Assembly (NCBI GenBank): GCA_030841025.1 | Contig: JAVEDJ010000197.1 | Coordinates: forward strand, 1-34,100 | Source: Actinomycetota bacterium | GTDB lineage: Bacteria > Actinomycetota > Actinomycetes > JACCUZ01 | DNA: 34,100 nt | Direction: 5' to 3' | Part shown: positions 1 to 22,539 of the stretch, piece after piece | Layout of the letters: each line of letters begins with the position of its first letter | Numbering within the stretch: position 1 is the first letter of the stretch | Position numbers and translations under genes: made by a program | Notes under the pieces: model-generated | Databases searched by the model: none | What the model saw: only the letters and a program-made list of their open reading frames with translations | Told to the model about the DNA's origin: nothing

Positions 1-366
1 GGAGTGCTCACCGGCGGCCACCTCAACGCGTCGTACGCCGCCGCGGACCTGCTGGTCCTCGCCTCGCGCGCCGAGACCTACGGCATGGTCGTGACCGAGG
101 CGCTGGCGCGCGGGCTCCCTGTCGTCGCGACAGCGGTCGGCGGGGTGCCGGAAGCGCTCGGCCACGGCGCTCATGGAAGCCGGCCGGGCGTACTGGTCCC
201 GCCGGGCGACCCGGCGGCTTTCGGTGCCGCGCTACGCGACTGGTTCGTCGACGCCGATCTGCGGCGACGGCTGCGGCGGGCCGCCCGCGAGCGGCGCACG
301 GCGCTGCCCGGCTGGTCGAGCAGCGCTGCGGCGATCTCGCGGGTCCTGACCGAGGCCGGCCAGTGA
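1..366 (+). CDS. Glycosyltransferase family 4 (GT-B), C-terminal fragment, truncated at the window's left edge
   Basis: The reading frame is open from base 1 (GVLTGGHLNASYAAADLLVLASRAETYGMVVTEALARGLPVVATAVGGVPEAL), matching the GT4 donor-binding motif E-x7-E (ETYGMVVTEALARGLPVVAT.VGGVPE). Confidence 0.88.
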   Translation, partial: GVLTGGHLNASYAAADLLVLASRAETYGMVVTEALARGLPVVATAVGGVPEALGHGAHGSRPGVLVPPGDPAAFGAALRDWFVDADLRRRLRRAARERRTALPGWSSSAAAISRVLTEAGQ

Positions 367-388
367 GCCGTTCCGAAGGGCCCCGGGG

Positions 389-1222
389 ATGAGCGTCGAG
401 ACGGTCCGGGTGAGCCCGGAGTGGCTGGCGTTGCGGGAGCCGGCCGACGCGCAGGCCCGTGCGGCCGACCTCGTCAGCCGGGCCCGGCAGCACCTGCCGG
501 CCAACGGTCGCCTGGTGATCCACGACCTGGGCTGCGGCACCGGGGCGATGACCCGCTGGCTCGCCCCGCTGCTGCCCGGGCCGCAGCACTGGGTCCTGTA
601 CGACCGGGACGCTGACCTGCTCGCCGCTGCCCCGGCGGACCTCCCCGCTGCAGCCGCAGACGGGACCGCGGTGACCGCCGAGACCCGCCAGTGCGACATC
701 ACCCGGCTGGACCCGGGCGAGCTGGCGGACGCGTCCCTGCTCACCGCCTCGGCCCTGTTGGACATGCTGACTGCAGACGAGCTGGACCGGCTGGTCAGGT
801 CATGTGCCGGCGCCGGCTGCCCCGTACTGATGACCGGGTCCGTCGTCGGACGCGTCGACCTCCTCCCGGGCGACCCGCTGGACGAGCTCGTCGCGGACGC
901 GTTCAACGACCACCAGCGCCGTACGACCGGTGGCCGGCGACTGCTCGGGCCGGACGCGGTCGCTGCTGCGGTCGACGCGTTCACGCGGCTCGGTGCCGAG
1001 GTGGTCGTCCGGCCCAGCCCCTGGCGGCTCGGCCCTGCTCATAGCGGCTCGGCCGAGCTGACCGCGGAGTGGTTCACCGGCTGGGTCGGCGCGGCGGTCG
1101 AGCAACGGCCGGAGCTCGTCGGCCCGGGCGCCGCCTACGTGCGGCGGCGCCGGGCCGAGGCAGCCACCGGCCGCCTGGCTGTCACGGTGCACCACGAGGA
1201 TCTGCTGGCCCTGCCGCGATGA
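389..1222 (+). CDS. Class I SAM-dependent methyltransferase
   Basis: 277-aa ORF with SAM motif I (VIHDLGCGTGAMTRWLAPLL) followed by VLYDRDADLL. Lies just downstream of, and co-directional with, the glycosyltransferase. Confidence 0.85.
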   Translation: MSVETVRVSPEWLALREPADAQARAADLVSRARQHLPANGRLVIHDLGCGTGAMTRWLAPLLPGPQHWVLYDRDADLLAAAPADLPAAAADGTAVTAETRQCDITRLDPGELADASLLTASALLDMLTADELDRLVRSCAGAGCPVLMTGSVVGRVDLLPGDPLDELVADAFNDHQRRTTGGRRLLGPDAVAAAVDAFTRLGAEVVVRPSPWRLGPAHSGSAELTAEWFTGWVGAAVEQRPELVGPGAAYVRRRRAEAATGRLAVTVHHEDLLALPR

Positions 1223-1345
1223 TTTCCGACCGAGCCGGTGAACCCCGGGGGCCCGCCGCACGTATCCCCGATCAGGGAGCGGCTCCGCACGGGTGACGGT
1301 GTGTGCGACGCTTCGCCAGCACCGACGAGGGAGTCGAGCGCCAGG

Positions 1346-2332
1346 ATGAGCCGGACGTTGGCGGGGTGGGCGCGCCTGCTGGGTGCCGCCGCGATCCTCG
1401 CGGTCCTGGTCTGGCGGCTGGGTACTGGCCCCTTCCTCGACGGCATCCACGCCGTCGACGGGCGGTCGCTGGCAGCGGCCGGCGTCATCGCGGTGCTGAC
1501 CACGGTCTGCTGCGCCTGGCGCTGGCGAACGGTCGCCCGCGGTCTCGGCGTGGATCTGCCGTTCGGCGTGGCGGTCGCCGCGTACTACCGGTCGGTGTTC
1601 CTCAACACGGTGCTCCCCGGCGGCGTGGTCGGCGACGTGCACCGCGGGGTGCGCCACGGCCGCGACGTCGGGGACGTTGGCCGTGCGCTGCGGGCTGTCG
1701 CCTGGGAACGCACCGCCGGACAGGTCGTGCAGGGCGTGCTGACCACGATCGTGCTGCTCTCGTTTCCTTCGCCGGTTCGCTCGTCCATGCCGGTGGTCGC
1801 GGTCGCGCTCGCGGCGCTCGCGCTCGGCGTCGTACTCCTGGTCCGGGCCATGCCGGAGGGCGGGCGGTCGCGGTGGGCGCGCACCTGGCGGGCCGCCCGC
1901 TCCGACGTCCGTGTCGGGCTGCTCGCACGCCGAGCGTGGCCCGGCATCGTGCTGCCCTCCGCCATCGTCGTGGCCGGCCATGCGGCCACCTTCCTGATCG
2001 CCGCGCGGACCGCGGGCGCCACAGCCTCGTTCGCCCGCCTGCTGCCCTTGGCGCTGCTCGTGCTGCTGGGCGCGACGGTGCCGAGCATCGCCGGATGGGG
2101 TCCCCGGGAAGGTGTGGCGGCGTGGGTGTTCGGCGCGGCCGGGCTGGGCGCGGCCCAGGGAGTGGCCACCGCCGTGGTCTACGGCGTGATGGTGGTCGTC
2201 GCCAGCCTGCCCGGCGCCGTGGTGCTCGTCATGGCGTGGCTGCACCGGCGCGCCGGGCGGCGCGACCCGGCGGGCCCAGCGCAGTGGCGGGTGCCGGCGG
2301 CGGCCAGGTCGGAAAGGGCCGGGCGTGGCTGA
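1346..2332 (+). CDS. Lysylphosphatidylglycerol synthase TM-region / flippase-like integral membrane protein (UPF0104 type)
   Basis: Polytopic membrane ORF. The ORF track starts at 1238, but the hydrophobic protein begins at the in-frame ATG 1346 (MSRTLAGWARLLGAAAILAVLVWRLG). Contains YYRSVFLNTVLPGGVVGDVHRGVRHGRD and WGPREGVAAWVF, typical of this family. Confidence 0.8.
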   Translation: MSRTLAGWARLLGAAAILAVLVWRLGTGPFLDGIHAVDGRSLAAAGVIAVLTTVCCAWRWRTVARGLGVDLPFGVAVAAYYRSVFLNTVLPGGVVGDVHRGVRHGRDVGDVGRALRAVAWERTAGQVVQGVLTTIVLLSFPSPVRSSMPVVAVALAALALGVVLLVRAMPEGGRSRWARTWRAARSDVRVGLLARRAWPGIVLPSAIVVAGHAATFLIAARTAGATASFARLLPLALLVLLGATVPSIAGWGPREGVAAWVFGAAGLGAAQGVATAVVYGVMVVVASLPGAVVLVMAWLHRRAGRRDPAGPAQWRVPAAARSERAGRG

Positions 2333-3017
2333 GCGGCCCTACACCCTGCTCAGCTGCGGCACGTCGATCGACGGATACCTCGGCGGCGCGACCGAGCAGC
2401 GCCTGGCGCTGTCCAACGAAGCCGACTTCGACCGGGTCGACGCCGTTCGCGCCGGCTGCGACGCAATCATGGTGGGCGCGGCCACCGTCCGACAAGACAA
2501 CCCGCGGCTGCTGGTGCGCTCGGCCGCGCGGCGGGACGAACGGGTCGTCCAAGGACTGGGCCCGTCACCGATCAAGGTGACCGTGACCAGGGGCGCCCAG
2601 CTGGACGCCTGCGCGAACTTCTTCACCGTGGGCGACGTCGAGAAACTGGTCTACTGCGCGAGCGCCGCGGTGGCCGAGGCCCGCTCCCGGCTGGGGCCGG
2701 TGGCGACCGTGATCGACGGCGGCTGGCCGGTCGACATGCGGCAGGTCAGCGAGGATCTCGGTGCGCGCGGCGTGCGGCGAATGATGGTCGAGGGCGGCGG
2801 CACGGTGCACACGCAGTTCCTCACCGGTGACCTCGCCGACGAACTGCAGCTGGTCGTGGCGCCGTTCTTCATCGGCGACTCCCGCGCCCGGCGGTTCGTC
2901 AGCGACGGCCAGTTCCCGTGGAACCCGCAGCGGCGCGCGACCCTCGCGGAGGTTCGCCAGATCGGTGACGTGGTGCTGCTTCGCTATGCCCTCTCGTCGC
3001 GGTTTCGCCTGGACTGA
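2325..3017 (+). CDS. RibD C-terminal-domain (dihydrofolate reductase-like) reductase
   Basis: 230 aa: LSCGTSIDGYL, DAIMVGAATVRQDNPRLLVR, RRMMVEGGGTVHTQFL, DELQLVVAPFFIGD are hallmark RibD-C motifs. Overlaps the preceding gene by 8 nt, suggesting translational coupling. Confidence 0.88.
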   Translation: MAERPYTLLSCGTSIDGYLGGATEQRLALSNEADFDRVDAVRAGCDAIMVGAATVRQDNPRLLVRSAARRDERVVQGLGPSPIKVTVTRGAQLDACANFFTVGDVEKLVYCASAAVAEARSRLGPVATVIDGGWPVDMRQVSEDLGARGVRRMMVEGGGTVHTQFLTGDLADELQLVVAPFFIGDSRARRFVSDGQFPWNPQRRATLAEVRQIGDVVLLRYALSSRFRLD

Positions 3018-3049: not shown

Positions 3050-3913
3050 GTGTGGAACGCGGGTGGTGTGTGGGCGCAGATCCGCCCCACAGCTTTCGTC
3101 CTTGCCCTGGCCATAGGTGCGGGAGTGCTCGCCGGGACGGGCCCGGTGACGTCGGCCGGCGACGACATCCGGTTGGTGCAGTTCAACCTGTGCGGACACG
3201 TCTGCCGCGACGACGACGCCGACAAGGTCGGCGGCGTCGTCAACTCCTTGGCGGGCTTCCATCCAATGGCGGTCAGCCTGAACGAGCTCTGCCGCCCGCA
3301 GCTCGCCGCGGTCCTCGACGGCATCTCCAGACGTGGCTGGGCGATGCACTCCCGGTTCTTGGTCACCGAGCGCGGCGGGTGCAGGGGCGGCGTGGACTAC
3401 GGCATCGCCGTACTGACTCGCACCACCATCGTCGATGCCGACCCGGTGACTTACGCTGCCCAGAACCACGTGGGCACCACCGAGCTCCGCGGGCTGCTGT
3501 GCGCGAAGGCGGAGCTCGGGAGCCGTCCGACGCGCATCTGCACGTCGCACGTCGTGGCCGCCGACGAAGACCCCAGTGGTGACATCCGGCGCGAGCAGGT
3601 CGCGGCGGCCGCGCGCTGGGTCGCCGCCTACCGCGTCCCCGTCGTGGTCATGGGCGACTTCAACCTGCGCCCCACCGACAGAGCAATGAGCGCCCTGTAC
3701 ACGCGATCGCATCGGGGCGGCGGGAACGGCATTTTCGAGGAGGTCGACCAGGGATCGGAGCACTGCCGGTGCGGCGAGCACACCTACGATTCGGGCGGGA
3801 AGTATGACTACATCTTCGTGAGCGCCCACGACTTCGTCGTGGCCGAGGGGGACGCGACCGCGTCGAGGTTCTCCGACCACGACCTTTTGCGCGGCTGGGT
3901 CATCACCCGCTGA
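3050..3913 (+). CDS. Secreted endonuclease/exonuclease/phosphatase (EEP, DNase I-like) family protein
   Basis: N-terminal hydrophobic signal-like segment (TAFVLALAIGAGVLAGTGPVTSAG). EEP motifs VQFNLCG, VVVMGDFNLRPTD, YDYIFVS, SDHDLL. Confidence 0.85.
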   Translation: MWNAGGVWAQIRPTAFVLALAIGAGVLAGTGPVTSAGDDIRLVQFNLCGHVCRDDDADKVGGVVNSLAGFHPMAVSLNELCRPQLAAVLDGISRRGWAMHSRFLVTERGGCRGGVDYGIAVLTRTTIVDADPVTYAAQNHVGTTELRGLLCAKAELGSRPTRICTSHVVAADEDPSGDIRREQVAAAARWVAAYRVPVVVMGDFNLRPTDRAMSALYTRSHRGGGNGIFEEVDQGSEHCRCGEHTYDSGGKYDYIFVSAHDFVVAEGDATASRFSDHDLLRGWVITR

Positions 3914-3945: not shown

Positions 3946-6342
3946 CTACGGAGTCGCCGGTTGCCCGCCGTACGCGGTGAGGAAGCGGTCGCGAAACGCA
4001 CTCATCGGCCACACGGGTGCGTGCGGGTCGGGCCGCAACCCGTCCTGCCAGCCCCACCCGGAGATCCGGTCCATGACCGCCTTGTCGTGGGCGACGATCG
4101 TGATCGGCACGTCGTGGCTCGCGTCTGGACCGGTGATGATCGTCGCGGGCTGGTGATCGCCCAGGAGGACAAGGACGAGGTTGTCGTCGGCGTAGTGCTC
4201 CACGAACGAGACGAGGGTGTTCACCGTGTACCGGACCGACCGGCCGTACGCCGCGCGTACCTTGTCGCGATCGCTCCACAGGGCGGCTCGCGACACCTGC
4301 TCGACGGGCATCCTGGCGAAGACCGAACCGTCGCCGACCTTGCTCCAGTCGATCAGCCGCGGTATGCGCGTCCACGGTTCGTGACTCGACACGAGGTCGA
4401 TCTCAGCCATCACGGGAGCACGGTCGGGTGCCGCGAGCTCCAGGCGTTGGAAGGCCGACATGACGTACTGGTCGGGCATCGAGGCGTAGGCGAAGGTCGG
4501 ACCGGCATACCCGACGTTGTGCCGCTCGTAGAGCTGGTCGTAGTGATAGAACGACCTGCCCTGCGGCCAGTCCCGGTTGTTGGACGGCACGTCGGCGACC
4601 GTCCGCCAGCCCGCGCGCTTGAACGCCTTGCTGAGCGTGAAGCGGTCGCTCGTGACCAGCTGGTCGTAGCGCCGCTGGCTGTCGACCCGCACCCCCGACT
4701 GCAGAGTCGCGTGGGCCAGCCAGCTGATGCCACCGAACGTCGGTGAGGTGAGGAAGGCGCTGCGGGAGGAGAAGCCGGCCGCCTGCAGTCGCCGGGTGCC
4801 TGTGTCGAGCGCCGCATTGACCTGCGGCGAGAAGGCCGAGTCCTGGACCGCGACCCGCCCGTAGCTCTCGACGAAGGCCACGATGACGTCCTTGCCGCGC
4901 AGGCCGGTCAACAGCTGGTCGCTCGGGCTGTCATGGAAGCGATCGTGGGCGATCTCGTCCGCGAAGATCGCGTGGTCCAGCACGCCGTTGCGCACTGCGC
5001 GCGCCTGGTCGTAGGCGAGGCCGGCTGCGCTCGTGGAGGCGACAGGCGTGCCGGAGACGAGCTGCACGCCGAGGACCGCGCACAGCACCCAGACGAGGCC
5101 GAGCGCCGTGACAGCCCTCAGTGACCAGGTGCGGTGGCGCGCCGCGAACCGGGTCAGGTGCAGCACCGACAGGGTCGTGAGGACGAGCACGACGACGGCG
5201 AGCAACCCCGCACCGACGATGGCCACGTTCGCGCCGGTTTCGCCGAACGAGCCGCGCAGCGTCTCGACCGCAGACCCGAGGTAGCCCCAGTCGGTCACCG
5301 GGTTGAACGGACGGGCGAGAGTCGCGAAGACGCCCATGTCGAGGAGCTTCACGAGGACCAGCAGGCCGAGTGCGGGTCCGAGCATCCACGCCAGGACGCG
5401 TCGTGCGGTGCCGGGCAGGACGAGAGCCATTGCGACGACGACAAGTCCTTCGACGGGGATCCGCACGAACTCGCCGAGCGTGAGACGACTCAGCTGGTTC
5501 GGAGCGACGAGGGCGACCCACACGAGCAGCAGGGCCAGGACCGTGGTCGTCGCGGCGGCGACGGTGCGCAATCGCCCTCGGGCCGGTCCCGGCTCAGCTG
5601 CGTCGGGGAGACTGCCCGACTGATCCGCAGCTGCCAGGGACGTGCCAGATGCGGCGCGCCGCCGACACCACAACCACCACACACTACGGCTGAACGACTC
5701 CGTGAGCAGCGCGAGGGACGCGACGAGCGCGGCGTACGTCCACGACCGGGGCAGGACGTCCGCCGCCGCGACCGTCAGCGTGATGCCCTGGATCGCCGCA
5801 ACGACCTTGCCCCAGTAGCGCGGTGGCAAGGTCTCGCGCAGCCACGGCAGCGGCCGACCGGCCACGACGAACGCGTAGCGCGCCACGCCGATCGTGAGCA
5901 CCCACCACCCGAAGGACGAGGCGACGTACACGCTGAGGACGAGGATCAGGAACGAGTCGACCTCCTGGTCGAAGTGCCGGCCGACGCTCGATGCCGTCCT
6001 GGTCCGCCGCGCCACCCAGCCGTCGACCGCGTCCAGCACCAGCGCTACGGCCGTGAGCGCCACCAGCGTCGACACTGGCGAGCGCTGCCCGAGCGAGTCC
6101 GCGACCAGTGCCGCCACGCCGCCGACGAGCGTGGCGCGGGCGAGCGTCACCCCGTCGGCGGGCCCGAGCGCGCCGGCTCCAGAACGCGCCAGGCCACGGG
6201 CCAGGGCGGCGTTGGTGACCACGCCGCAGGCGATGCCGACGACCCACCCGGCGATGCCCAGGCCGAGGGTTCCGGCCAGTACGGCGAGCAGCATCAGCTG
6301 CGCGGTCAGCCCAATCGCCGGGCCGGTTCGAACCGATGGCAC
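3946..6342 (-). CDS. Fusion protein: N-terminal CDP-alcohol phosphotransferase domain plus C-terminal alkaline-phosphatase/sulfatase-superfamily (LtaS-like) domain
   Basis: N-terminus carries the full CDP-OH-P motif D-x2-DG-x2-AR-x8-G-x3-D-x3-D (LDAVDGWVARRTRTASSVGRHFDQEVD). C-terminal half has DVIVAFVESYG, SPTFGGISWLAHATLQSGV, SSHEPW and LLGDHQPA. ORF track start 6558 is probably over-extended; in-frame GTG 6342 (VPSVRTGPAIGLTAQ) is preferred because the longer form overlaps the divergent methyltransferase. Confidence 0.85.
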   Translation of the reverse strand: MPSVRTGPAIGLTAQLMLLAVLAGTLGLGIAGWVVGIACGVVTNAALARGLARSGAGALGPADGVTLARATLVGGVAALVADSLGQRSPVSTLVALTAVALVLDAVDGWVARRTRTASSVGRHFDQEVDSFLILVLSVYVASSFGWWVLTIGVARYAFVVAGRPLPWLRETLPPRYWGKVVAAIQGITLTVAAADVLPRSWTYAALVASLALLTESFSRSVWWLWCRRRAASGTSLAAADQSGSLPDAAEPGPARGRLRTVAAATTTVLALLLVWVALVAPNQLSRLTLGEFVRIPVEGLVVVAMALVLPGTARRVLAWMLGPALGLLVLVKLLDMGVFATLARPFNPVTDWGYLGSAVETLRGSFGETGANVAIVGAGLLAVVVLVLTTLSVLHLTRFAARHRTWSLRAVTALGLVWVLCAVLGVQLVSGTPVASTSAAGLAYDQARAVRNGVLDHAIFADEIAHDRFHDSPSDQLLTGLRGKDVIVAFVESYGRVAVQDSAFSPQVNAALDTGTRRLQAAGFSSRSAFLTSPTFGGISWLAHATLQSGVRVDSQRRYDQLVTSDRFTLSKAFKRAGWRTVADVPSNNRDWPQGRSFYHYDQLYERHNVGYAGPTFAYASMPDQYVMSAFQRLELAAPDRAPVMAEIDLVSSHEPWTRIPRLIDWSKVGDGSVFARMPVEQVSRAALWSDRDKVRAAYGRSVRYTVNTLVSFVEHYADDNLVLVLLGDHQPATIITGPDASHDVPITIVAHDKAVMDRISGWGWQDGLRPDPHAPVWPMSAFRDRFLTAYGGQPATP

Positions 6343-6439: not shown

Positions 6440-7288
6440 ATGGCGGACACCCCTGTCGAGCAGCCAGTATGCGGCGATGCGCGGCACGCGTCGCACGTTC
6501 CGCACGGACTGAGGAAGGCCATGAGACAGGACGAGGACGCTCCTTTTGTCCCAGCCATGGAGCGGGCCCGCCGATCGGCGTACGCCCCCGGCGAGTTCGT
6601 CGATCAGGAAAACTTCATGCCGAGCGGCGAAATCCTTGCCTTGGCCGTTCGGGCCGGTGTCGGGCCTGGCGTTTCCGTGCTGGACCTGTGTTGCGGAGTG
6701 GCCGGGCCCGGACGGTTCATCACTCGGGAGCTGGCGTGCACATATCTGGGAGTGGACCACAGCCCCAGCGCCATTGCCCTCGCACGTGAGCGCGCCCGCG
6801 ACCTTGCCTGCCGCTTCGAGGTATCGCGCATCCCCCCGATTCCGGCTGGCCCGTTCGACGTCGTACTCCTGCTGGAAACCATGTTGCTCTTTCCCGACAA
6901 GGAGGCGCTCCTTCGCGAGATATCCCCGGCGCTCCCGATCGGGGGGCGCTTCGCCTTCACCCTGGAGGAGGGGCAGCCCTTGACGGCCGCGGAACGAGAC
7001 CGCATGCCGCACGCCGACACCGTGCGGCTCATTCCCTTGTCCGAGATGGTCTCCTGCCTGGAGCGGGTCGGGATGCGGGTCCGCTGGCAGAACGAGTGCA
7101 GTCAGTCCCACCGGGCCGTGGTCGATTCGTTGATCACCGCGTACACCGTCCATGAGTCGGACATTGCCGCGCACATCGGGCGCCGGGCCCTGGATGATCT
7201 GCTGGCCGCCCACCGGCTCTGGAGCGACTGGCTGCGAGAGGGACGGGTGCGCAAGTTCGCGTTCGTGGCCGAGAAGACCACGGGCTGA
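6440..7288 (+). CDS. SAM-dependent methyltransferase (class I)
   Basis: The frame is ORF 5894..7288. ATG 6440 is preceded by GGAGGA (6425-6430). SAM motif VSVLDLCCGVAGPGRFITREL..YLGVDHS, and FDVVLLLETMLLFPDKEALLREI. Start codon uncertain (ATG 6521 is the alternative). Confidence 0.8.
   Translation: MADTPVEQPVCGDARHASHVPHGLRKAMRQDEDAPFVPAMERARRSAYAPGEFVDQENFMPSGEILALAVRAGVGPGVSVLDLCCGVAGPGRFITRELACTYLGVDHSPSAIALARERARDLACRFEVSRIPPIPAGPFDVVLLLETMLLFPDKEALLREISPALPIGGRFAFTLEEGQPLTAAERDRMPHADTVRLIPLSEMVSCLERVGMRVRWQNECSQSHRAVVDSLITAYTVHESDIAAHIGRRALDDLLAAHRLWSDWLREGRVRKFAFVAEKTTG

Positions 7289-8311: not shown

Positions 8312-8315
<4 letters not shown>
7824..8315 (-). CDS. DUF3566 domain-containing membrane protein
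   Basis: 163 aa with two TM segments; [17 protein letters not shown] and [26 protein letters not shown] are typical of the DUF3566 protein encoded just downstream of gyrA in actinobacteria. Overlaps the gyrA stop. Confidence 0.9.
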
Positions 8316-10897
<2,582 letters not shown>

Positions 10898-10949
10898 TGG
10901 TGGCTTCTCCTAGAAGGGGCGTACGACGGTGGCGATGGCTCGTCGTCGC

Positions 10950-13022
10950 CTAGATGTCGAGGAAGCGGACGTCCTTGGCATTGCGCTGGATGAACCGTCG
11001 ACGCGAGTCGACGTCCTCGCCCATCAACGTGGTGAACATCTCGTCGGCCTGCGCAGCGTCCTCGAGAGTGACCTGCAGCAGGATGCGGTGCTCGGGATCC
11101 ATGGTCGTCTCCCAGAGCTCGTCGTTGTTCATCTCACCGAGGCCCTTGTAACGCTGAATGCCGCCGTCCTTGGGCAGCTTGCGGCCGGCCCCGACCCCGG
11201 CCGCAGTGAGAGCGTCGCGCTCGCGGTCGGAGTAGGCGTACTCGGCCGGATGCGGCCGTGACCACTTGAGCTTGTAGAGCGGCGGCTGGGCGAGGAAGAC
11301 GTAGCCCTGCTCGACGACCGGACGCATGAAGCGGAACAGCAGGGTCAACAACAGCGTGCGGATGTGCTGGCCGTCGACGTCTGCGTCGGCCATCAGCACC
11401 ACCTTGTGATCGCGCAGCCGGTTGATGTCGAAGTCGTCATGGATGCCAGTGCCCAGCGCCGAGATGATGGCCTGGACCTCCTGGTTCTGCAGCACCCGGT
11501 CGATGCGCGCCCGCTCGACGTTGAGGATCTTGCCGCGGATGGGCAGGATCGCCTGGACCTTCTGGTCGCGCCCCTGCTTGGCCGGACCGCCGGCCGAGTC
11601 GCCCACGACGATGAACAGCTCGCACTCGTTGGGGTTCGTCGACTGGCAGTCGGCCAGCTTGCCGGGCAGGCTGCCGCCGCCGAGCAGACCCTTGCGGCTG
11701 CGGGCCGCGTCACGTGCCTTACGGGCGGCCAGCCGCGCGATCGACGCGGACATCGCCTTGCGGGCAATCTCCTTGCCCTCGCTCGGATTCTTCTCGAACC
11801 ACTCGCCGAGCCGGTCGTTGACGACGCGCTGCACGAACGACTTGGCCTCGGTGTTGCCGAGCTTGGTCTTGGTCTGACCCTCGAACTGCGGTTCGGCGAG
11901 CTTGACGCTGACGATCGCGGTCAAGCCTTCGCGCACGTCGTCGCCGGTCAGGTTGGCGTCCTTCTCCTTCAAGATGCTCCAGTCGCGGGCAAACTTGTTG
12001 ACCAGCGTCGTCAGAGCAGCTCGGAAACCCTCTTCGTGAGTCCCGCCCTCGTGCGTGTTGATGGTGTTCGCGAAGGTGTGCACCGACTCGTTGAAACCGG
12101 TGTTCCACTGCATCGCGACATCGAGCGACATGCCGCCGTCGATGTGGTCGGACTCGGCCTCGAAGGAGACGACGGTGTTGTGCACCGACTCCTTGCGTGC
12201 GCCCAGATAGTCGACGTAGTCGACGAGGCCGCCGTCGTAGCGATAGACCACCTCGGTCGGCGTCGTCTCGTCGATCTCGTCCTCGGCGCTCTGCTCGAGG
12301 GTGGCGGTGCGCTCGTCACGCATCGCGATCGTGAGGCCCCTGTTGAGGAACGCCATCTCGCGAAGTCGCGTGGACAGCGTCTCGAAGCTGTAGTCGGTCG
12401 TCTCGAAGATGTCGGCGGCGGCCCAGAACGTCAGGGTCGTGCCGGTCGAGTCGGTCGGCTCTCCGCGTTGCACCGGACCGTCGGGCACGCCGTAGGTGTA
12501 GGACTGCGTCCAGAGGTGACCGTCGCGCCGGATCGCGACCTCGAGCTTGCTCGAGAGTGCGTTGACCACCGAGACACCGACGCCGTGCAGGCCACCGGAC
12601 ACCTTGTAGCCACCGCCGCCGAACTTGCCGCCGGCGTGCAGCACGGTGAGGACGACCTCGACAGCGGGGCGGCCTTCGCTCTCGACGTTGTCGACCGGGA
12701 TGCCGCGGCCGTTGTCGCTGACCCGGACACCGCCGTCGGCGAGCAGGGTCACGTCGATGCGGTCGCAGTGCCCGGCGAGGGCCTCGTCGACGGAGTTGTC
12801 GACCACCTCGTAGACCAGGTGGTGCAGGCCTCGCTCGCCCGTCGACCCGATGTACATGCCCGGTCGCTTGCGCACCGCCTCGAGGCCCTCGAGGACCTGG
12901 ATCGCGCTGGCGTCGTAGGTGGGCGCGGCCGGGGGCGCGACCGCGGGGGTCGGTGGGGTGCTGGGAGCCTGCCCGTCGCTGTTCTCGCTGAGGTTCTCGG
13001 TCGAGTCGGCCGGCTGCGTCAC
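10950..13022 (-). CDS. gyrB: DNA gyrase subunit B
   Basis: 690 aa: [57 protein letters not shown]-like TOPRIM ([36 protein letters not shown]), [17 protein letters not shown]. Confidence 0.99.
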
Positions 13023-13314
13023 AGATCACCTTTCTTCGCGCACGCGGCAGCCAGATCCACCGGTAGGGGGGTGGTCGAGGCGGCTAGCGCGCAGTCGTCG
13101 CACGGACTGTGCGGACAGGTCTTTATCTTACCCGTCCCCGGCACCAGAACCGGCCATCAGGGCCGTCTGGGGACGGCGGAGCCGCGCAAACATGGGTGGG
13201 GGTGGGGTCCCCCACGCGAGCGGCGGCTCCAGCGGGCTCTCGGGCCATTCCCCGGCTCCCACCGGGTCCAGGCGGCCCGAACAGGACTGGCCCTCGCAGG
13301 CGCCAGTCGGCGCC

Positions 13315-13950
13315 TCAGCCGTAGGTGTCGCGCGGTCCCCGCCCGCGCACGGTCAACCGGCCGCGCTTCCAGGACGGCGCGCGCGGTCCCTGGATCGTCA
13401 CCTGGGTCACCAGGCCCTCGCCGAGCTCGGCCGAGAGGCGCCGCACGAGGGTCGGGGCGAGCAGCCGGAGCTGGGTGGCCCACGCGGTGGACGACGCGAC
13501 CACCACGAGCTCGCCGTCCTCGAACGACACCGGCTCGCAGTGCGACGCAAGCTCGTCGCCCACGACGGCGGCCCACCGACCCATCACCCCGCCGACCTTG
13601 GCGTCGGTCTGCCAGCCGCGGTCCTCGACCAACCGGCCGAGCGACGCGTCGAGGGTCTGCGGGTCTCGCTCGTCGGGATGCGCGCCGCTGCGCGCGGAAG
13701 TGTCACGGAACCGGCGGCGCCGACCGTCGGCCGCCGATCCGTCGCCGGTGCCAGCGGTACGCCCGCCCCGCGACCCCGACCGGGTGGAGAAGCCACGGCG
13801 CGACGCCTCCGCCTTGGCCGCCGCCAGGGCGCCGCGGGCGACCTCGACGCCGCGACGCACCGGAGCGGCCGCGGCATCAGCCCCGGCCACTGCATCCTGC
13901 GCGGCCGACCCGTCGGGGCCGGCTGCGTCCGAAGCACCTGGATCGGTCAT
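13315..13950 (-). CDS. DUF721 / DciA-like protein (replicative helicase loader family)
   Basis: Low-complexity N-terminus, then [69 protein letters not shown]. Positioned between recF and gyrB. Confidence 0.9.
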
Positions 13951-15083
13951 CGCACCCGCCGTACCTCTCCCGCCATCACGTCGACGCGTGCACCGGCGAG
14001 CTCCTCGGGGACATCGGCCGCGACGGCAGCGGTGACGAGCACCTGTTCCGCTCGGGCCACCATGCCCGCCAACCGCTCGCGCCGGCCGACGTCGAGCTCG
14101 GCGAACACGTCGTCGAGGATGAGCACCGGCTCGCCACCCTCATCGGTGTCGCTGCGGAGCAGGTCGTAGGCCGCCAGCCGCAGCGCGAGCGCGAACGACC
14201 AGGACTCGCCGTGGCTGGCGTATCCCTTGGCGGGCAACGGTCCGAGCTTGAGCAGCAGGTCGTCCCGGTGCGGACCCACGAGGGAGATGCCGCGCTCGAG
14301 CTCGTTGCGCCGGAGGTTGGAGATCTCGCTGAGCAGCGCCGCGGACAGCACGTCCCTGTCCGGCACCAGCGGCACGTCCTCGCCCAGCGAGCACTTGTAG
14401 TCGAGGGCCACCGGCCCGCCGGAGTCGGCCACCGCGTCGTACGCCTTGTCGACGAGCGGACGTATCACCTCGACCAGGTCGAGCCGTGCCGCGAGCAGCT
14501 CGGCCCCGGTCGTCGCGAGGTGGCTGTCCCAGACCTCGAGCGTGCGCAGGTCTCCCTTGCCGGCGCGGATGCCGGCCCCGGCGGACTTGAGCAGCGCGTT
14601 GCGCTGGCGCAGCACCCGGTCGTAGTCGGCGCGCACTCCGGCGAGGCGCGGTGTGCGCAGCACCAGAAGGTCGTCGAGAAACCGGCGACGCTCGGTCGGG
14701 TCGCCCTTGACCAGCGCCAGGTCCTCGGGGGCGAACAGCACGGTGCGCAGGATGCCGATCACCTCGCGGGCCCGGGGTACGGGCGCGCGGTTGACCCGCG
14801 CCCGGTTGGCCTTGCCCGGCGTGATCTCGATCTCGACGAGCAGCGCGCGGTCGTCACGGACCACATTTGCGCGTACGACGGCGCGCTCGGAGCCGAGCCG
14901 CACCAGCGGGGCGTCCTGCGCGACGCGGTGCGAGCCCAGCGTCGCGAGGTAGCCCACCGCCTCGACCAGGTTGGTCTTGCCCTGACCGTTGGGTCCCACC
15001 AGCGCCGTCACCCCGGCGTCGAGGGGCAGCTCGACCTCGACGTAGGAGCGGAAGTCGCGCAGTGAGAGGTGGGTCAGCCGCAT
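13947..15083 (-). CDS. recF: DNA replication/repair protein RecF
   Basis: 378 aa: [81 protein letters not shown]. Confidence 0.98.
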
Positions 15084-15153
15084 GTGCTCGGTCCTTGACT
15101 GCTGGGTCCTCGACCTGTCGGGCCGGTCGCGTGGTCGTCTCTGCCGCCGGGCC

Positions 15154-16065
15154 TCAGGCCGGCTCCTCGACCTCGCCCTTGGCCACCTTGGTGACCGCGT
15201 GGCCGCCGAACTGGTTACGCAGCGCGGCCACCGCCTTCATCGCCGGCGAGTCGACCTGCCGCGAGGAGAAGCGCGCGAACAAGGCCGCGGAGATCACCGG
15301 CAACGGCACTGCGTGGTTGATCGCCTCCTCGACGGTCCACCTGCCCTCGCCGGAGTCCTCGACGAAGCCGCGGATCTGTTCGAGCTTGGGGTCCTCGTCG
15401 AGCGCGAGCACCAGCAGGTCGAGCAGCCACGACCGGATGACGGTGCCATGCGTCCAGGACTTGATGACGCCCGGGACGTCCTGCACCACCTCGGACGCTT
15501 CCAACAGCTCGAAGCCCTCGGCATAGGCCTGCATCAGGCCGTACTCGATGCCGTTGTGCACCATCTTGGCGAAGTGACCGGCGCCCACCGGGCCGGCGTG
15601 CACGAAGCCGGACTCCCCTTCCGGCTTCAGCGCGTCGAAGATCGGCTGCACCGTGGCGACGTTCTCGGTCTCCCCGCCGACCATCAGCGCGTAGCCGTTG
15701 TCCAGGCCCCACACCCCGCCGGACACACCCGCATCGACGAAGCCGATGCCCTTGGTTGCCAGATGCTCGGCGTGCAGCTTGTCGTCGGTGTAGCGGGAGT
15801 TGCCGCCGTCGATCACGACGTCACCCTGCGCGAGGAGCTCGCCAAGCTGGTGGATCGTCTGCTGGGTCGCCTCGCCCGCGGGCACCATCACCCACACAGC
15901 ACGCGGGGCCTCGAGCTGCGCGACCAGGTCCTCGAGCGAGGAGGCATCACTGATGTCGGGGTTGAAGTCGAAGCCCACGACGGTGTGACCGGCGCGACGC
16001 AGCCGCTCGCGCATGTTGCCGCCCATCTTGCCCAAGCCGACCAGACCGAGCTTCATGGCTGCCAA
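15154..16065 (-). CDS. gnd: 6-phosphogluconate dehydrogenase (decarboxylating), short form
   Basis: 303 aa: [95 protein letters not shown]. gnd between dnaN and recF also fits known actinobacterial order. Confidence 0.97.
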
Positions 16066-16159
16066 CCCTTCCTACGAAGCAGGATTTCGGCAAATTCCCT
16101 TTGCTGACAACGGTTTCTTGTCACCTGCGACATGCTTGGTGAGACTGATTACGAGACCG

Positions 16160-17305
16160 TCAGCCGGACAGGCGCACCGGCATCAGGAGATAGCGGTAGT
16201 CGTCACCGGCGACCGCGTCGGCGCTGTCCTTGCCGGCCAGGACGGCGGGGCGGGTCGACGCGGTGAACCGCAGCTCGGCGTAGGACGCGCCGAGCGCACC
16301 CAACCCGTCGAGCAGATAGTTGGGGTTGAACGCGATCGAGATGTCGTCACCGGTGAGGCCGGCGTCGAGCGACTCGGACGCCTGCGCCTCGTCACCCGTG
16401 CCGGCTTCCAGGGTCACCTCGCTGCCGCTGAAGCTGAGCCGGATGGGTGTGTTGCGCTCGGCGACGAGTGCCACGCGCCGCACCGACTCGACCAGCGCGG
16501 CGGTCTCGACCGTGGCCACGGACTGCGACTCGGACGGCAGCAACGAGCGGTACTTGGGGAACTCGCCGTCCAGTAGCCGCGACGTCGTACGTCGGCCCGA
16601 ACCCTCGAAGCCGACCAGGCCCTCACCGGCGGCACCCGAGGATGCCAGCGCGACGGTCACCTTGTCGGCACCCGAGAGCGCCTTGGCGGTCTCGGACAGG
16701 GTGCGGGCCGGGACGAGCGCCACGGCAGCGAGCCCGGTCTGCTCCGGAGTCCAGGCCAGGTCGCGGACCGCGAGGCGGTAGCGGTCGGTCGCCGCCATCG
16801 TGATCTTCTCGCCCTCGATCTCGAGCCGGACCCCGGTGAGCACCGGCAGGGTGTCGTCGCGGCCGGCGGCCACGGACACCTGGGCCACGGCGGCCGCGAA
16901 GGCGTCACCCCGCAGCGAGCCGGACGCGCCGGGCATCGTCGGCAGCGCGGGGTAGTCCTCCACCGGGAGGGTGAGCAACGTGAATCGGGAGGTGCCGCAG
17001 GTCAGCACGACCTTGGACGCGTCGGTGGTGACCTCGACCGGCCGGTCCGGGAGGCTGCGGGAGATGTCGGCCAGCAGCCGTCCGCTGACCAGGGCGACCC
17101 CGGGCTCGCTGATGTCGGCCGAGATCTCCACGCGGGCGGACACCTCGTAGTCGAAGCTCGAGAGCACCAGCCCACCAGGCGCACTGGCATCGCTCGCGTC
17201 CAGCATCAGGCCGGCGAGCACCGGCACCGGCGGACGCGCGGGCAGGCCGCGGGCGGCCCATGCCACTGCGTCCGCGAGAACGTCGCGCTCCACCCGGAAC
17301 TTCAC
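16160..17305 (-). CDS. dnaN: DNA polymerase III subunit beta (sliding clamp)
   Basis: 381 aa: MKFRVERDVLADAVAWAARGLPARPPVPVLAGLML..., ISIAFNPNYLLDGL, C-terminal YRYLLMPVRLSG. Confidence 0.98.
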   Translation of the reverse strand: MKFRVERDVLADAVAWAARGLPARPPVPVLAGLMLDASDASAPGGLVLSSFDYEVSARVEISADISEPGVALVSGRLLADISRSLPDRPVEVTTDASKVVLTCGTSRFTLLTLPVEDYPALPTMPGASGSLRGDAFAAAVAQVSVAAGRDDTLPVLTGVRLEIEGEKITMAATDRYRLAVRDLAWTPEQTGLAAVALVPARTLSETAKALSGADKVTVALASSGAAGEGLVGFEGSGRRTTSRLLDGEFPKYRSLLPSESQSVATVETAALVESVRRVALVAERNTPIRLSFSGSEVTLEAGTGDEAQASESLDAGLTGDDISIAFNPNYLLDGLGALGASYAELRFTASTRPAVLAGKDSADAVAGDDYRYLLMPVRLSG

Positions 17306-17830
17306 CGGTCACCGCCTCCTGCTCCTGGTCGTGCTGATCGCTGGGGTCCGTCGTACAGCTCACGCTTCGTCTCACTGTGGCCCGGCGAGCCCGTCGTCCC
17401 CAGCTCGGGCCGCTCTGGTGTGAGAGGTCGATCCAACTCCATAGGTATCTGTAGAGGTCTCACTAGGGGCGGTGCACAGTGGGGATATCTGCCGTTCCTG
17501 CAGGTCAGACCGTAGACGAGGCTGGGGACAGGCTGGGGAGGGCGGCTGGGACCGGCCCCGGGCGACTGTGGACGAGAACCGTCATCCACCGTCGTCCACA
17601 GCACCACCCCGCACGTTCGGCCCTGTTTCCACAGGCTTGTCCCCAAGGTGTGAACGCGGCCGGCGGCGGGCCGGCGGGCCGGCGAGCAGCCCCGAGATTC
17701 GGCCCGTGAACCGGTCGCCGAGCGGCCGCTCCGGGTGGCGTGGCGCGCCGGCGTACGGCGCTGGGGGCCTAGGAGGGGGCCCCGGCGGGCGCCCAGGAGG
17801 GAGACGGGGGTGCGGAGCGTCATGCGCGAG
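17306..17830. promoter_or_regulatory. oriC: dnaN-dnaA intergenic region; probable oriC with a DnaA-box cluster
   Basis: Four near-matches to the actinobacterial box TTGTCCACA lie within about 80 bp: 17567-17575 (minus, TCGTCCACA), 17592-17600 (TCGTCCACA), 17625-17633 (GTTTCCACA) and 17637-17645 (TTGTCCCCA). Weaker ones flank them, e.g. TCATCCACC at 17582-17590. dnaA-dnaN is the usual actinobacterial origin. Confidence 0.7.
17761..17796 (-). terminator. GC-rich inverted repeat just downstream of the dnaA stop; possible terminator or structured 3' end
   Basis: CTGGGGGCC (17761-17769) pairs with GGCGCCCAG (17788-17796) with one mismatch, with an internal self-complementary GGGGCCCC. About 35 nt past the dnaA stop. 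No U-tract. Confidence 0.35.
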
Positions 17831-19366
17831 TCAGCCTGCACGGGCCTGCGACTTGATGCGGTTGGTCAGCTCGGTGACCTGGTTGTAGACGCTGCGCCGC
17901 TCCGCCATCAGCTGGCGGATCTTCTTGTCGGCGTGCATCACGGTCGTGTGGTCACGACCGCCGAACTGCTGCCCGATCTTGGGCAGGGAGAGGTCGGTGA
18001 GCTCGCGGCACAGGTACATCGCGATCTGGCGAGCGTTGACGAGCACGCGCGAGCGCGACGAGCCGCACAGCTCCTCCATCGACTGACCGAAGTACGCCGC
18101 GGTCTGCGCCATGATCGTCGCGGAGGTGATCTCCGGCTGGCTGCTGTCCGGGATCAGGTCCTTGAGCACGATCTCCGCGAGCGCCAGGTCGACGCCCTGC
18201 CGGTTGAGGCTCGCGAACGCCGTGACCCGGATCAGGGCCCCCTCGAGCTCACGGATGTTGGTCGAGATCTTGCTGGCGATGAACTCCAGCACCTCCGGCG
18301 GCGCCGCCAGCCGCTCCTGGGCCGCCTTCTTGCGCAGGATGGCGATACGGGTCTCGAGCTCGGGGGGCTGGACGTCGGTGATCAGGCCCCAGTGGAAGCG
18401 GTTGCGCAGCCGGTCTTCCAGGGTGACCAGCTGCTGGGGCGGCCGGTCGCTGGAGATGACGATCTGCTTGTTCGCGTTGTGCAGCGTGTTGAACGTGTGG
18501 AAGAACTCTTCCTGGGTCTGTTCCTTGTTCTCCAGGAACTGGATGTCGTCGACCAGCAGGATGTCCACGTCGCGGTAGCGGCGGCGGAAACCGTCGGCCC
18601 GACCGTCACGGATGGAGTTGATGAAGTCGTTGGTGAACTCCTCGGAGCTCACGTAGCGCACCTTCACCCCGCTGTAGAGGCTCATGCCGTAGTGCCCGAT
18701 GGCGTGCAGGAGGTGGGTCTTGCCCAGACCGGAGTCGCCGTAGATGAACAGCGGGTTGTAGGCCTTGGCCGGTGCCTCGGCCACCGCGACGGCCGCTGCG
18801 TGGGCGAATCGGTTGCTGGACCCGATGACGAAGGTCTCGAACAGGTAGCGCGGGTTGAGCCGGGTGGGCTCGCTCTCCCGGCGCGAACCGGGCTCCCGCC
18901 CGGTGCCGGCCGCAGTGGACTCACCGGGCTGGAAGCGGTCGAGGTCGGGGGCGGCGCTCGGCAGGGCGCGGCCGTCGGGGCCGGGCTGGCTCTCCTCGCC
19001 GACCCGCACGGTCGGCGGCGGGTCCAGCCGCCCGTCGTCGTCCAGGCTCGGGTCGACCACGACGGCGATGCGGATCTCGCGGCCGAGCTGCTCGGCCAGG
19101 CTGGCCGTGATCACCTGGCGCAGTCGCTGCTCGATGATGTCCTTGGCGAAGTCGTTGGGCACGGACAGCAGGGCGGTGTCGCCCACGACACCGTCCAGGG
19201 TGCTCAGCCGGACGAAGGCGCGCTGCTGCGGGGTGACCGTGTCCTCGAGAACCGCCAGCGAGCGGCCCCAGACCTCCGTGAGGTCCGGCCCGTCCGGCCC
19301 CCCGTCGGTGGGCACCTGGCCCGGGTCCGTGATGTCCGTGACGCCGTTGTTGGTCACGGCCTCCAC
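17831..19366 (-). CDS. dnaA: Chromosomal replication initiator protein DnaA
   Basis: 511 aa: [83 protein letters not shown], and signature [37 protein letters not shown]. Confidence 0.99.
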
Positions 19367-19483
19367 CTCTCGTCGTGCGCTCGCCTCGTGCTGCGGTGGT
19401 GCCGGTCGTTGCCCGGTGAGGGCAGTGGACCGGCATCAGTGCTGGTCAGGCCCTCGTGGGGTCACGCCCACGGTCCACCATCC

Positions 19484-19667
19484 CCGTCCACATGGTCATC
19501 CACAGCCTGTGTACACAGGGTGTCCCGAAGCGTCGCGTCGGTGCTGTGCGGCCCGTGGGAGAAGCCCGTGGGAGAGCACAGCGTCGCACACACCGCGGGA
19601 GGGGAAGCCGCCCGTCGAGGCGCCGACGCTAACAACCGGCGACCCGGCCAGCAAGCGCTTGTCCACA
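19484..19667. promoter_or_regulatory. dnaA upstream region with additional DnaA boxes
   Basis: Perfect TTGTCCACA at 19659-19667, TCATCCACA at 19496-19504 and CCGTCCACA at 19484-19492, in the dnaA-rpmH divergent intergenic region. Confidence 0.6.
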
Positions 19668-19999
19668 ACCGGGAGAGAAATTTCCGCCGCAAGCGTGGCG
19701 TCGCTCGGCGTGTCGAGCGAGACGGCGCACGTCCGGCGGCCAGGATGGAGGGTTCGGCCCGGCCGCCGGTTTACGGACGCGCGACGGGCGGTCCGTGGGC
19801 AGGGCGCGCCGCCCGTGGTTTGACCGTGCGCCGCCGCCGCACGTACCGTAGATCGGTCGAGTCCCCGACGACTCGGTGTCGCGCGTTCCTGTGAGCGTCG
19901 CCAGCTGGCTTGTCAGCCACCTTGCGCGCCGCTCCTGCCGACACACCCGCACCGCGTCCCGAGATGTCCCTTTCTTGTCGCAAGGCCAGGAGCCCACGA

Positions 20000-20137
20000 G
20001 TGAGCAAGCGCACGTTCCAGCCCAACAACCGCCGCCGGGCCAAGACTCACGGCTTCCGTCTTCGCATGCGCACCCGGGCCGGTCGCGCCATCCTCGCCGC
20101 CCGTCGTCACAAGGGCCGCGCCCGGCTCTCGGCCTGA
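20000..20137 (+). CDS. rpmH: 50S ribosomal protein L34
   Basis: GTG 20000: [45 protein letters not shown] (45 aa). The ORF-track start at 19910 is over-extended. Confidence 0.98.
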
Positions 20138-20142
20138 CCCCC

Positions 20143-20538
20143 GTGCTGCCGGCCTCCGCACGGTTACGCCGTAGTGCGGACTTTGCGGCGACCGTACGAC
20201 GGGGCCGCCGCGGCCGTACCGGCCTGCTGCTGGTTCACCTGCTGACTCCTGCCATGTCCGAGGTTGACGCCACCACGGACGGCTCCACCTGCGGTTTCGT
20301 GGTCTCGCGGGCCATCGGCGGTTCGGTGGTCCGGCATCGCGTGCTGCGCAAGCTGCGGCACCTGGTGTCCCCCCGAATCGAGCAGTTGCCGCCCGGCTCC
20401 CGGCTGGTGGTGCGCGCGCTCCCAGGAGCTGCGACGGCATCGTCCGCGGCGCTCGGCAATGCCCTGGACCGCGCGCTGCGCAGCGTTCTGGGCTCGCCCG
20501 CACGCTCCCCGCACGGCGAGACGGCAGCGCGGCGATGA
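20143..20538 (+). CDS. rnpA: Ribonuclease P protein component
   Basis: Frame of ORF 19876..20538 with GTG 20143: [34 protein letters not shown]...[25 protein letters not shown] (RNR-like motif variant). Follows rpmH directly. Confidence 0.95.
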
Positions 20539-20801
20539 TCGGCCGCCTGCTGACCCTGCCGATCCGGGTCTACCAGCTGCTCATCTCGCCGCTGCTCGGC
20601 CCCCGGTGCCGCTTCTACCCGTCGTGCTCGGCCTACGCCGTCGAGGCGCTGATCTCGCACGGCGCCCTGCGCGGCAGCTACCTGGCGGGACGCCGGCTGC
20701 TGCGTTGCCACCCGTGGAACCCCGGCGGTCTGGACCCCGTTCCTCCCAAGCACTCCGGGACCGCCCCGACTCCGCATCATCCGCATGGAGCCCGCACGTG
20801 A
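20535..20801 (+). CDS. yidD: Membrane protein insertion efficiency factor YidD
   Basis: 88 aa: [60 protein letters not shown]. Confidence 0.97.
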
Positions 20802-21823
20802 AGATCCTCGAGCCGCTGTACGACGCCGTCACGTTCATCATGTTGGCGTTTCATTCCTTGTTCAAGTCGATCGGCATCGATGAGAGCAGTGGGCTGGCCT
20901 GGGGTGGCTCGATCGTCGGTCTGGTCATCGTCATCCGCATCCTGCTGATCCCGCTGTTCGTCAAGCAGATCAACGCCCAGCGTGGGCTGCAGATGCTGCA
21001 GCCGGAGATCAAGAAGCTGCAGGCCAAGTACAAGGGGAAGACCGACCCCGAGAGCAAGCAGAAGCAGCAGCAGGAAATGATGAAGCTCTACCGCGACAAC
21101 GGGACCAACCCGCTCGCGAGCTGCCTGCCCATCGTCCTGCAGGCGCCCATCTTCTTCGCTCTCTTCCGGGTCCTCGACGGCATCGGCCATACGCCCAACC
21201 CGATCACGCGCGGCCTGCTGAACAACAACACGGCGACTCAGGCGGCCGACGCCTCCATCTTCGGCGCGCACATCTCGGATCAATTCCTGGGGGCGGACAA
21301 CGTCCGGGTCCAGATCATCACCGCGGTGATGATCGTGCTGATGTCGGCGACGACGTTCCTGACGCAGAAGCAGCTCATGAGCAAGAACATGCCGGCGTCG
21401 GCGATGGACAACCCGTTCGCCCAGCAGCAGAAGATCCTGCTCTACGTGTTCCCGCTGATCTTTGCCGTCAGCGGCGTGAACTTCCCCATCGGGGTGCTGC
21501 TCTACTGGCTGACGACGAACCTGTGGTCGATGGGCCAGCAGTTCTACGTCATCCGCCGCAACCCGTCCCCTGGCTCCCCCGCCTTCGACGCGCTGGAGAG
21601 GCGAAAGGCCGAGAAGGCAGCGCGGCACGCCGCGGCAGCCACCACCGCGGCGACGACCGGGTCGTCGGCAGAGGCCGGTAGCCCCAACGGCAGCTCCCCT
21701 GGCGGGATCGACGCGATCGACGTGACCGACGGTACCGACGCGGGAGCTGCCGACGGCGCGACCGAGACCCGTCCGTCGCGGCAACGCCAGCAGCCACGAC
21801 GGCAGCCCAAGCGCAAGCGCTGA
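20798..21823 (+). CDS. yidC: Membrane protein insertase YidC
   Basis: GTG 20798 ([26 protein letters not shown]), [82 protein letters not shown]. The ORF-track start at 20264 is over-extended. Confidence 0.96.
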
Positions 21824-21920
21824 CCGCACTCCCGGCGCGGCCGCCCGGCGCGCCAGCGCCACCACCCGACCAGCACCACAAGAGATCGCTGCACCGAGTC
21901 CGTGAAGGGTTAGGACCACG

Positions 21921-22520
21921 ATGACCGAGTCGACCAGTCCCGAAGCCGCCGAGGCGCCCCCTGCGGAGGTGACCGCAACGACCAGCGCACCGGCCAGTGA
22001 CGAGACTGAGACCGAGGGAGCGCCCGGCGCCGCGCAGAACGGCGTTCGCCGAGGCGAACAGGACATCCGCGCGCTGGAGCGTGAGGGCGAGATCGCCGCG
22101 GACTACCTCGAGGAGCTCCTCGACATCGCCGATCTCGATGGTGACATCGATATGGACGTCGAGCGCGATCGGGCCGCTGTGTCCGTGGTCGGGGGCGACC
22201 TCGACCATCTGGTCGGGTCCGAGGGGGCGGTGCTGGAGGCGCTGCAGGAGCTGACCCGGCTGGCCGTGCTGACCCAGACCGGCGACCGGTCGCGGCTGAT
22301 GCTCGACATCGGCGGTTACCGCGCCGGCCGGCGCGCCACGCTCACCGAGCTGGGGCTTGCCACGGCGGCGGAAGTCAAGAAGTCCGGCGAAGCGGCTCGG
22401 TTGGCGCCGATGTCACCGTTCGAGCGCAAGATCGTGCACGACGCCGTTGCCGAGGCAGGACTGCGAAGCGAATCTGAGGGTGAAGAGCCGCAGCGGCGCG
22501 TCGTCGTACTGCCCGCGTGA
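21921..22520 (+). CDS. Jag/KhpB-type protein (KH and R3H domains)
   Basis: 199 aa: DYLEELLDIADLDGDIDMDVE, GGDLDHLVGSEGAVLEALQELTRLAV, LMLDIGGYRAGRRATLTELG, MSPFERKIVHDAVAEAGLRSESEGEEPQRRVVVLP. Between yidC and rsmG. Confidence 0.95.
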   Translation: MTESTSPEAAEAPPAEVTATTSAPASDETETEGAPGAAQNGVRRGEQDIRALEREGEIAADYLEELLDIADLDGDIDMDVERDRAAVSVVGGDLDHLVGSEGAVLEALQELTRLAVLTQTGDRSRLMLDIGGYRAGRRATLTELGLATAAEVKKSGEAARLAPMSPFERKIVHDAVAEAGLRSESEGEEPQRRVVVLPA

Positions 22521-22539
22521 GGATTGCTGGTCACATCCT

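Follow-up and report, generated by a model that had tools for sequence, protein, structure and literature searches.

The left end of the 34,100-nt stretch examined here (the window, which is the entire contig C291 of the 433-contig draft actinobacterial genome G000) places a GT4 glycosyltransferase, an S-adenosylmethionine (SAM)-dependent methyltransferase, a flippase-like membrane protein and a stand-alone RibD_C reductase side by side, raising the question of which pathway would draw on all four. Our analysis indicates that these genes form the 3' (downstream) half of a pathway that is dedicated and widely conserved, occurring in numerous soil actinobacteria as well as in some proteobacteria. 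The interpretation that we favor, with moderate confidence, is that the complete gene cassette directs a GTP-derived pathway to a glycosylated and methylated pterin or pyrimidine, either attached to a lipid or exported. What can be read from the sequences is gene content, gene order, conservation and residue losses, while the substrates, the order of steps and the product are what we infer from them.

Because the contig ends inside the GT4 gene, the operon could not be extended within G000, and neither the PTPS-like gene nor the dehydrogenase gene described below has an orthologue elsewhere in that assembly. The upstream genes were taken from a sister genome of the same genus, whose RibD_C protein is 87% identical to that of the window, and from approximately 70 other loci. 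In the sister genome the operon continues with the remainder of the GT4 gene (full-length orthologue at L104:10463-11542), a 132-residue PTPS-fold protein and a BchC-like alcohol dehydrogenase. An earlier note on this DNA had proposed that the operon runs on leftward, which these genes bear out, with the correction that the contig end interrupts the glycosyltransferase gene itself. The note had also predicted that the set would include a PTPS homologue, a GTP cyclohydrolase II (GCHII), a 'zinc' alcohol dehydrogenase and a creatininase-family gene; the first three all lie within the operon in relatives, and the creatininase-family gene is part of it in streptomycetes.

Sampling covered 80 loci encoding RibD_C relatives and then loci around the PTPS-like gene, which avoids a bias towards RibD_C, and the sampled loci were scanned with hidden Markov models (HMMs) of the cassette members. 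Across many actinobacterial families the recurring order is dehydrogenase, PTPS-like protein, GT4, methyltransferase, flippase, in some cases RibD_C, and GCHII, with RibD_C and/or GCHII last and a CDP-alcohol phosphotransferase gene that is mostly divergent from the rest. Neighboring genes are separated by short gaps or overlap, and some cassettes contain GT4-methyltransferase or GCHII-RibD_C fusions. The 8-nt overlap of the window's flippase and RibD_C genes is kept in relatives (median gap of -8 nt, with 87% overlapping, at 23 loci), which suggests translational coupling. Where at least 5.5 kb was available on either side of the PTPS-like gene (63 loci), we found the dehydrogenase at 60, GT4 at 57, the flippase at 56, the CDP-alcohol phosphotransferase at 49, and the methyltransferase and GCHII at 48 each. 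The gene order of the cassette is conserved far beyond chance. A nearly fixed order over several thousand bases, from streptomycetes to rhizobia, implies that the product should be used by the cells that carry it.

The same association is evident at the level of whole genomes. Of 297 class genomes, 42 carry the PTPS-like gene, 39 the window's flippase subfamily and 37 both (Fisher p 2.8e-39, a value that overstates independence as one genus of large, Streptomyces-like genomes, g24, is heavily represented). The families therefore do co-occur across genomes, as the earlier note had anticipated. Of the 105 genera sampled, up to 17 have matches to the PTPS-like protein and up to 15 to the flippase. 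The flippase gene is usually at most 4 kb from the PTPS-like gene and lies within 10 kb at 38 of 43 PTPS places; in the sister genome and most of the 42 genomes, the PTPS-like gene adjoins the GT4-methyltransferase-flippase genes. Only two genomes have the flippase subfamily without the PTPS-like gene, and in one of them, G000, this gene would fall in the gap beyond the contig end. The subfamily is nearly exclusive to genomes carrying the PTPS-like gene. RibD_C is tied less tightly to the set, with 43 genomes encoding a RibD_C relative and no PTPS-like gene. We considered RibD_C as the defining gene of the system and rejected it, as its subfamily also occurs in other contexts, for example with a cytidine-deaminase-fold neighbor. 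At three non-cassette loci (L086, L170 and L171) the RibD_C relative adjoins a cytidine/dCMP-deaminase-fold gene, an arrangement like a split RibD that may represent another uncharacterized pyrimidine module.

The whole cassette is also found beyond the actinobacteria, on plasmids of Rhizobium, Peteryoungia and Agrobacterium, where the set comprises sulfatase, LPG_TM, CDP-alcohol, RibA, dehydrogenase, PTPS, GT4, methyltransferase, RibD and cytochrome b genes; the Rhizobium and Peteryoungia cassettes additionally contain an FkbM gene. Partial cassettes occur in Methylosinus, Palleronia and Thiodictyon, and the range outside the actinobacteria includes Rhizobiaceae and Chromatiaceae. The cross-phylum HMM matches are strong for every member scored: 474 bits for the sulfatase-like protein, 372 for the dehydrogenase, 277 for GT4, 166 each for the PTPS-like protein and methyltransferase, 159 for the CDP-alcohol phosphotransferase and 153 for the flippase.

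The PTPS-fold protein of the sister genome is an orthologue of Streptomyces coelicolor SCO6650, whose structure has been solved (PDB 3d7j; E 1.3e-62). It shares the T-fold and the substrate-anchoring glutamate with PTPS/QueD (6-carboxytetrahydropterin synthase), but the catalytic cysteine, one zinc-binding histidine and the relay histidine are gone in all cassette orthologues. In our alignment of 74 sequences Cys27 is replaced by Ala, His33 by Ala (one Val) and His71 is lost, each in 74 of 74. The PTPS/QueD signature (Cys27, zinc ligands His16/31/33 and Asp70-His71) is consequently not found in these proteins; His16 and His31 are kept, as is the pterin-anchoring Glu110 (74/74). Because the catalytic residues are lost and the anchoring glutamate is invariant, the protein has most likely kept the binding of a pterin-like ring but does not run the PTPS reaction. 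The SCO6650-type gene also occurs without the cassette on two Streptomyces plasmids (L155 and L164), among cupin, MEKHLA-domain and MBL-fold genes.

The window's RibD_C protein differs from bacterial RibD in having no N-terminal deaminase and in scoring 76 bits against TIGR00326, for which the cut-off is 156. Its best NCBIfam model is that of the archaeal/fungal diaminopyrimidine reductase, TIGR01508, whose curated cut-off of 186 bits it does not reach (129 bits), and its nearest solved structures are 5xv5 and 6p8c. Reductases of the TIGR01508 type act on the ribosyl side chain with NADPH. Because a complete riboflavin operon lies elsewhere in G000 (contig C405), the protein is not the housekeeping riboflavin enzyme; the earlier note had likewise taken the locus to be something other than ordinary riboflavin synthesis.

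GCHII enzymes contain zinc cysteines 54/65/67 and a catalytic arginine, and require Tyr105 (E. coli numbering) for deformylation. No GCHII gene was seen in the window's own cassette. In the GCHIIs of other cassettes the zinc cysteines and Arg128 are kept wherever the sequence is complete, and Tyr105 is kept in cassettes that contain RibD_C. All 13 GCHII-bearing cassettes without RibD_C have Met, His, Gln or Leu at this position, and exactly these 13 contain a creatininase-family gene (PF02633, 218 bits), which was found in none of the RibD_C cassettes. Spoonamore et al. (2006, cited in PMC3509567) reportedly described the effect of a Tyr-to-Met exchange on GCHII, with the Tyr-less cyclohydrolase of S. 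coelicolor stopping at the formyl intermediate FAPy. The cassette hydrolase may resemble the formamidase BrbF, a creatininase-family enzyme that deformylates FAPy (PMC9478397), and both front ends would then converge on one diaminopyrimidine. We do not treat the correlation as many independent events, as the cassette tree supports one switch, and the change of front end was probably a single event. In seven of eight Streptomyces-like genomes examined, counting L110, a pair of RibD_C and Tyr-type GCHII is encoded elsewhere.

The CDP-alcohol phosphotransferase in the window is fused to a membrane-anchored LtaP-like domain and has an intact motif, D88xxDG..AR..G105xxxD109xxxD113. The corresponding DxxDGxxAR(x8)GxxxDxxxD pattern is invariant in nine of nine aligned members and is also present in the window fusion and 12 aligned relatives. 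The LtaP-like domain falls below the PF00884 cut-off and matches LtaP weakly (4uop, E 6.5e-5), with conserved E249, T292 and D485-H486; the AlphaFold model of the fusion is of low confidence (predicted local distance difference test score, pLDDT, of 68). Since the two domains are separate neighboring genes in other cassettes, such as that of Rhizobium (L153), finding them fused adds to the evidence that they work together.

From these observations we propose the following route. GCHII, alone or with the creatininase-family formamidase, would convert GTP to 2,5-diamino-6-ribosylamino-pyrimidinone phosphate, and RibD_C, where present, would reduce the ribosyl to a ribityl side chain with no deamination beforehand. 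The zinc-free PTPS-fold protein and the BchC-like dehydrogenase could then turn the diaminopyrimidine into a pterin-like core, which would be glycosylated by GT4 and methylated by the methyltransferase. We predict that the CDP-alcohol phosphotransferase links this head group with an anchor of the phospholipid type, that the LPG_TM protein translocates the lipid-linked product over the membrane and that, in many species, the LtaP/LtaS-like enzyme acts on it outside. Tentatively, the product could be a membrane-anchored glycosylated pterin or ribityl-pyrimidine, that is, a phospholipid with a GTP-derived head group, perhaps serving as a redox or light-absorbing cofactor of the membrane. If true, this would be a class of lipid and cofactor not described so far. 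A cytochrome b561-type gene is present in five proteobacterial cassettes (L151, L153, L159, L160 and L163); it may point to a redox-active membrane product, and a redox role would fit its presence there.

The lipid anchor is the part of this proposal most readily questioned. The product could instead be a soluble glycosylated pterin, comparable to cyanobacterial pterin glycosides and kept in the cell or exported, with the CDP-alcohol and LtaP-like genes serving a neighboring phospholipid function. Among the partners of the PTPS-like gene, the dehydrogenase and GT4 are the most constant (60/63 and 57/63 loci), some relatives (L141 and L143) hold the dehydrogenase-PTPS-GT4 genes alone, and the CDP-alcohol phosphotransferase gene mostly lies on the other strand and is absent near 14 of the 63. 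We nonetheless think a soluble product rather unlikely, considering that the CDP-alcohol and sulfatase-like genes accompany the cassette across phyla with strong orthology and that the flippase subfamily is almost confined to genomes with the PTPS-like gene. The GT4, methyltransferase, flippase, CDP-alcohol and LtaP-like domains are all typical envelope enzymes, and with the catalytic residues of PTPS lost, the PTPS-like and RibD_C folds might have been recruited to sugar-nucleotide chemistry for an envelope glycopolymer or glycolipid that involves no pterin. This appears doubtful, as most cassettes encode GCHII, in some cases fused with RibD_C, the creatininase gene occurs exactly where the GCHII tyrosine is lost, the pterin-anchoring glutamate is invariant, and RibD_C relatives have cytidine-deaminase-fold neighbors, resembling a split RibD. 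Since riboflavin synthesis begins with the same enzymes and many bacteria keep extra GCHII copies, one might also envisage an additional gene set that supplies riboflavin, or a flavin for secretion, in particular circumstances. We regard this as very improbable: the cassettes contain no deaminase, lumazine synthase or riboflavin synthase, G000 has its complete riboflavin operon elsewhere, and this reading would not account for the glycosyl, methyl and lipid enzymes.

Several points weigh against the pathway that we propose. The creatininase-like protein scores under the ArfB cut-off (37 versus 180 bits) and is closer to MftE (141 versus 172), and the 13 cassettes linking it to the loss of the tyrosine are not independent if the front end switched once. 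Because streptomycete-type cassettes are without RibD_C, and some such genomes are without this RibD_C subfamily altogether, not every cassette would lead to a ribityl product. Least certain is the lipid step, because some cassettes are without the membrane genes (near the PTPS-like gene the flippase is missing at 7 and the CDP-alcohol gene at 14 of the 63 loci). Finally, we know of no metabolite for any cassette, and of no activity for any member except the SCO6655 cyclohydrolase.

Among known systems, the riboflavin pathway (RibA/RibD in bacteria; ArfA-ArfB-ArfC/RIB7 in archaea and fungi; BrbF) resembles the cassette front ends in its opening of GTP, its creatininase-family deformylation step (BrbF, PMC9478397) and its side-chain reduction. 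Unlike that pathway, the cassette has no deaminase, lumazine synthase or riboflavin synthase and continues with PTPS-like, dehydrogenase, glycosyltransferase, methyltransferase and membrane genes. Cyanobacterial pterin glycoside pathways likewise combine a PTPS-fold enzyme with a glycosyltransferase acting on a pterin, but their first enzyme is GTP cyclohydrolase I, and they are not known to include CDP-alcohol, flippase or LtaP-like genes. The membrane half consists of families known from lipoteichoic acid-type handling (LtaP/LtaS, CDP-alcohol phosphotransferases and LPG_TM proteins), with the differences that the head group seems to be derived from a pyrimidine or pterin and that the similarity to LtaP is weak.

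The link to S. coelicolor rests on the orthologous PTPS-like protein and on locus-tag steps that fit the streptomycete order, which in S. fungicidicus is PTPS-GT4-methyltransferase-(flippase)-creatininase-GCHII. SCO6655 we take to be a GCHII for which an activity study has been reported. With SCO6650 as the PTPS-like protein and SCO6655 as GCHII, the numbering would make SCO6651 the GT4, SCO6652 the methyltransferase, SCO6653 the flippase and SCO6654 the creatininase-family protein. SCO6652 is up by approximately 4 log2 units in differentiated mycelium (PMC3610822), and SCO6655 is anticorrelated with predicted flux, within a gene set whose members mostly go up in stationary phase (PMC2853524); both would fit a late-growth pathway. 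These genes have been described as single genes only, and the window cassette differs in being of the RibD_C type without a creatininase gene. Our literature search on the cassette and its members returned single-gene mentions only, and no product. The comparison connects the structure 3d7j, solved but without an explanation, and 'hypothetical' genes regulated by growth stage with a single pathway. It yields testable assignments: the intermediate that each type of cyclohydrolase makes, the purpose of the inactive-looking PTPS fold of SCO6650, and whether a pterin becomes attached to lipid.

In the window itself (Table 1), the four same-strand genes and the overlap of the last two named in the earlier note are all present, with the families matched by Pfam. 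That gene list stood as far as it went, and missed the minus-strand fusion gene of the same system.

Table 1. Cassette features in the window.
Feature	Position (nt)	Strand	Evidence
GT4 glycosyltransferase, last ~121 residues	1-366	+	PF00534, 74 bits vs cut-off 26.4; cassette GT4 HMM, 185 bits
Class I SAM-dependent methyltransferase, small-molecule type	389-1222	+	PF13649; alignment of 36 rows
LPG_synthase_TM/flippase-like membrane protein	1346-2332 (alternative start 1238)	+	PF03706, 102.8 bits vs 33.4
Stop/start overlap of flippase and RibD_C genes, 8 nt	2325-2332	+	
Stand-alone RibD_C reductase, 230 aa, without deaminase domain	2325-3017	+	PF01872, 130 bits vs 24.1
CDP-alcohol phosphotransferase fused to sulfatase/LtaP-like phosphotransferase domain	3946-6294 (alternative start 6558)	-	PF01066
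Second SAM methyltransferase, possible accessory member	6557-7288	+	Pfam; adjoins CDP-OH_PT gene

The EX7E motif of the GT4 fragment lies within SRAETYGMVVTEALARG. The first methyltransferase is modeled with high confidence (AlphaFold2 pLDDT 94.4) and its Foldseek matches are mainly small-molecule methyltransferases; the fold is clear, and the structure search did not separate substrate classes. For the flippase-like protein, which scores under the cut-off of TIGR00374, comparison with the sister genome makes the start at 1346 more likely than that at 1238. The family of the second methyltransferase (cluster 12) is present at nine loci, mainly next to the CDP-alcohol phosphotransferase gene. 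An endonuclease/exonuclease/phosphatase-family gene (3125-3913) lies between the RibD_C and fusion genes, in the sister genome as well; we rejected it as a cassette member, as it is outside the conserved set.

A second set of related genes is present on G000 contig C170 (L116, 7,877 nt), which encodes a GCHII-RibD_C fusion, a dehydrogenase, a zinc-type PTPS, two GT4 proteins and a HAD hydrolase. We considered it as the missing half of the operon and rejected it, as its PTPS is 36% identical and of the zinc type and the gene set is different. Because this PTPS was found in no other of 197 class genomes, the set may be a horizontal transfer or a mis-binned contig. A role of the cassette in anti-phage defense was also dismissed, as PADLOC gave no meaningful match. 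The cassette lies near the replication-origin region, which occupies 8315-25804 of the window and includes gyrA, gyrB, a recF-like gene, dnaN, dnaA, yidC and parB.

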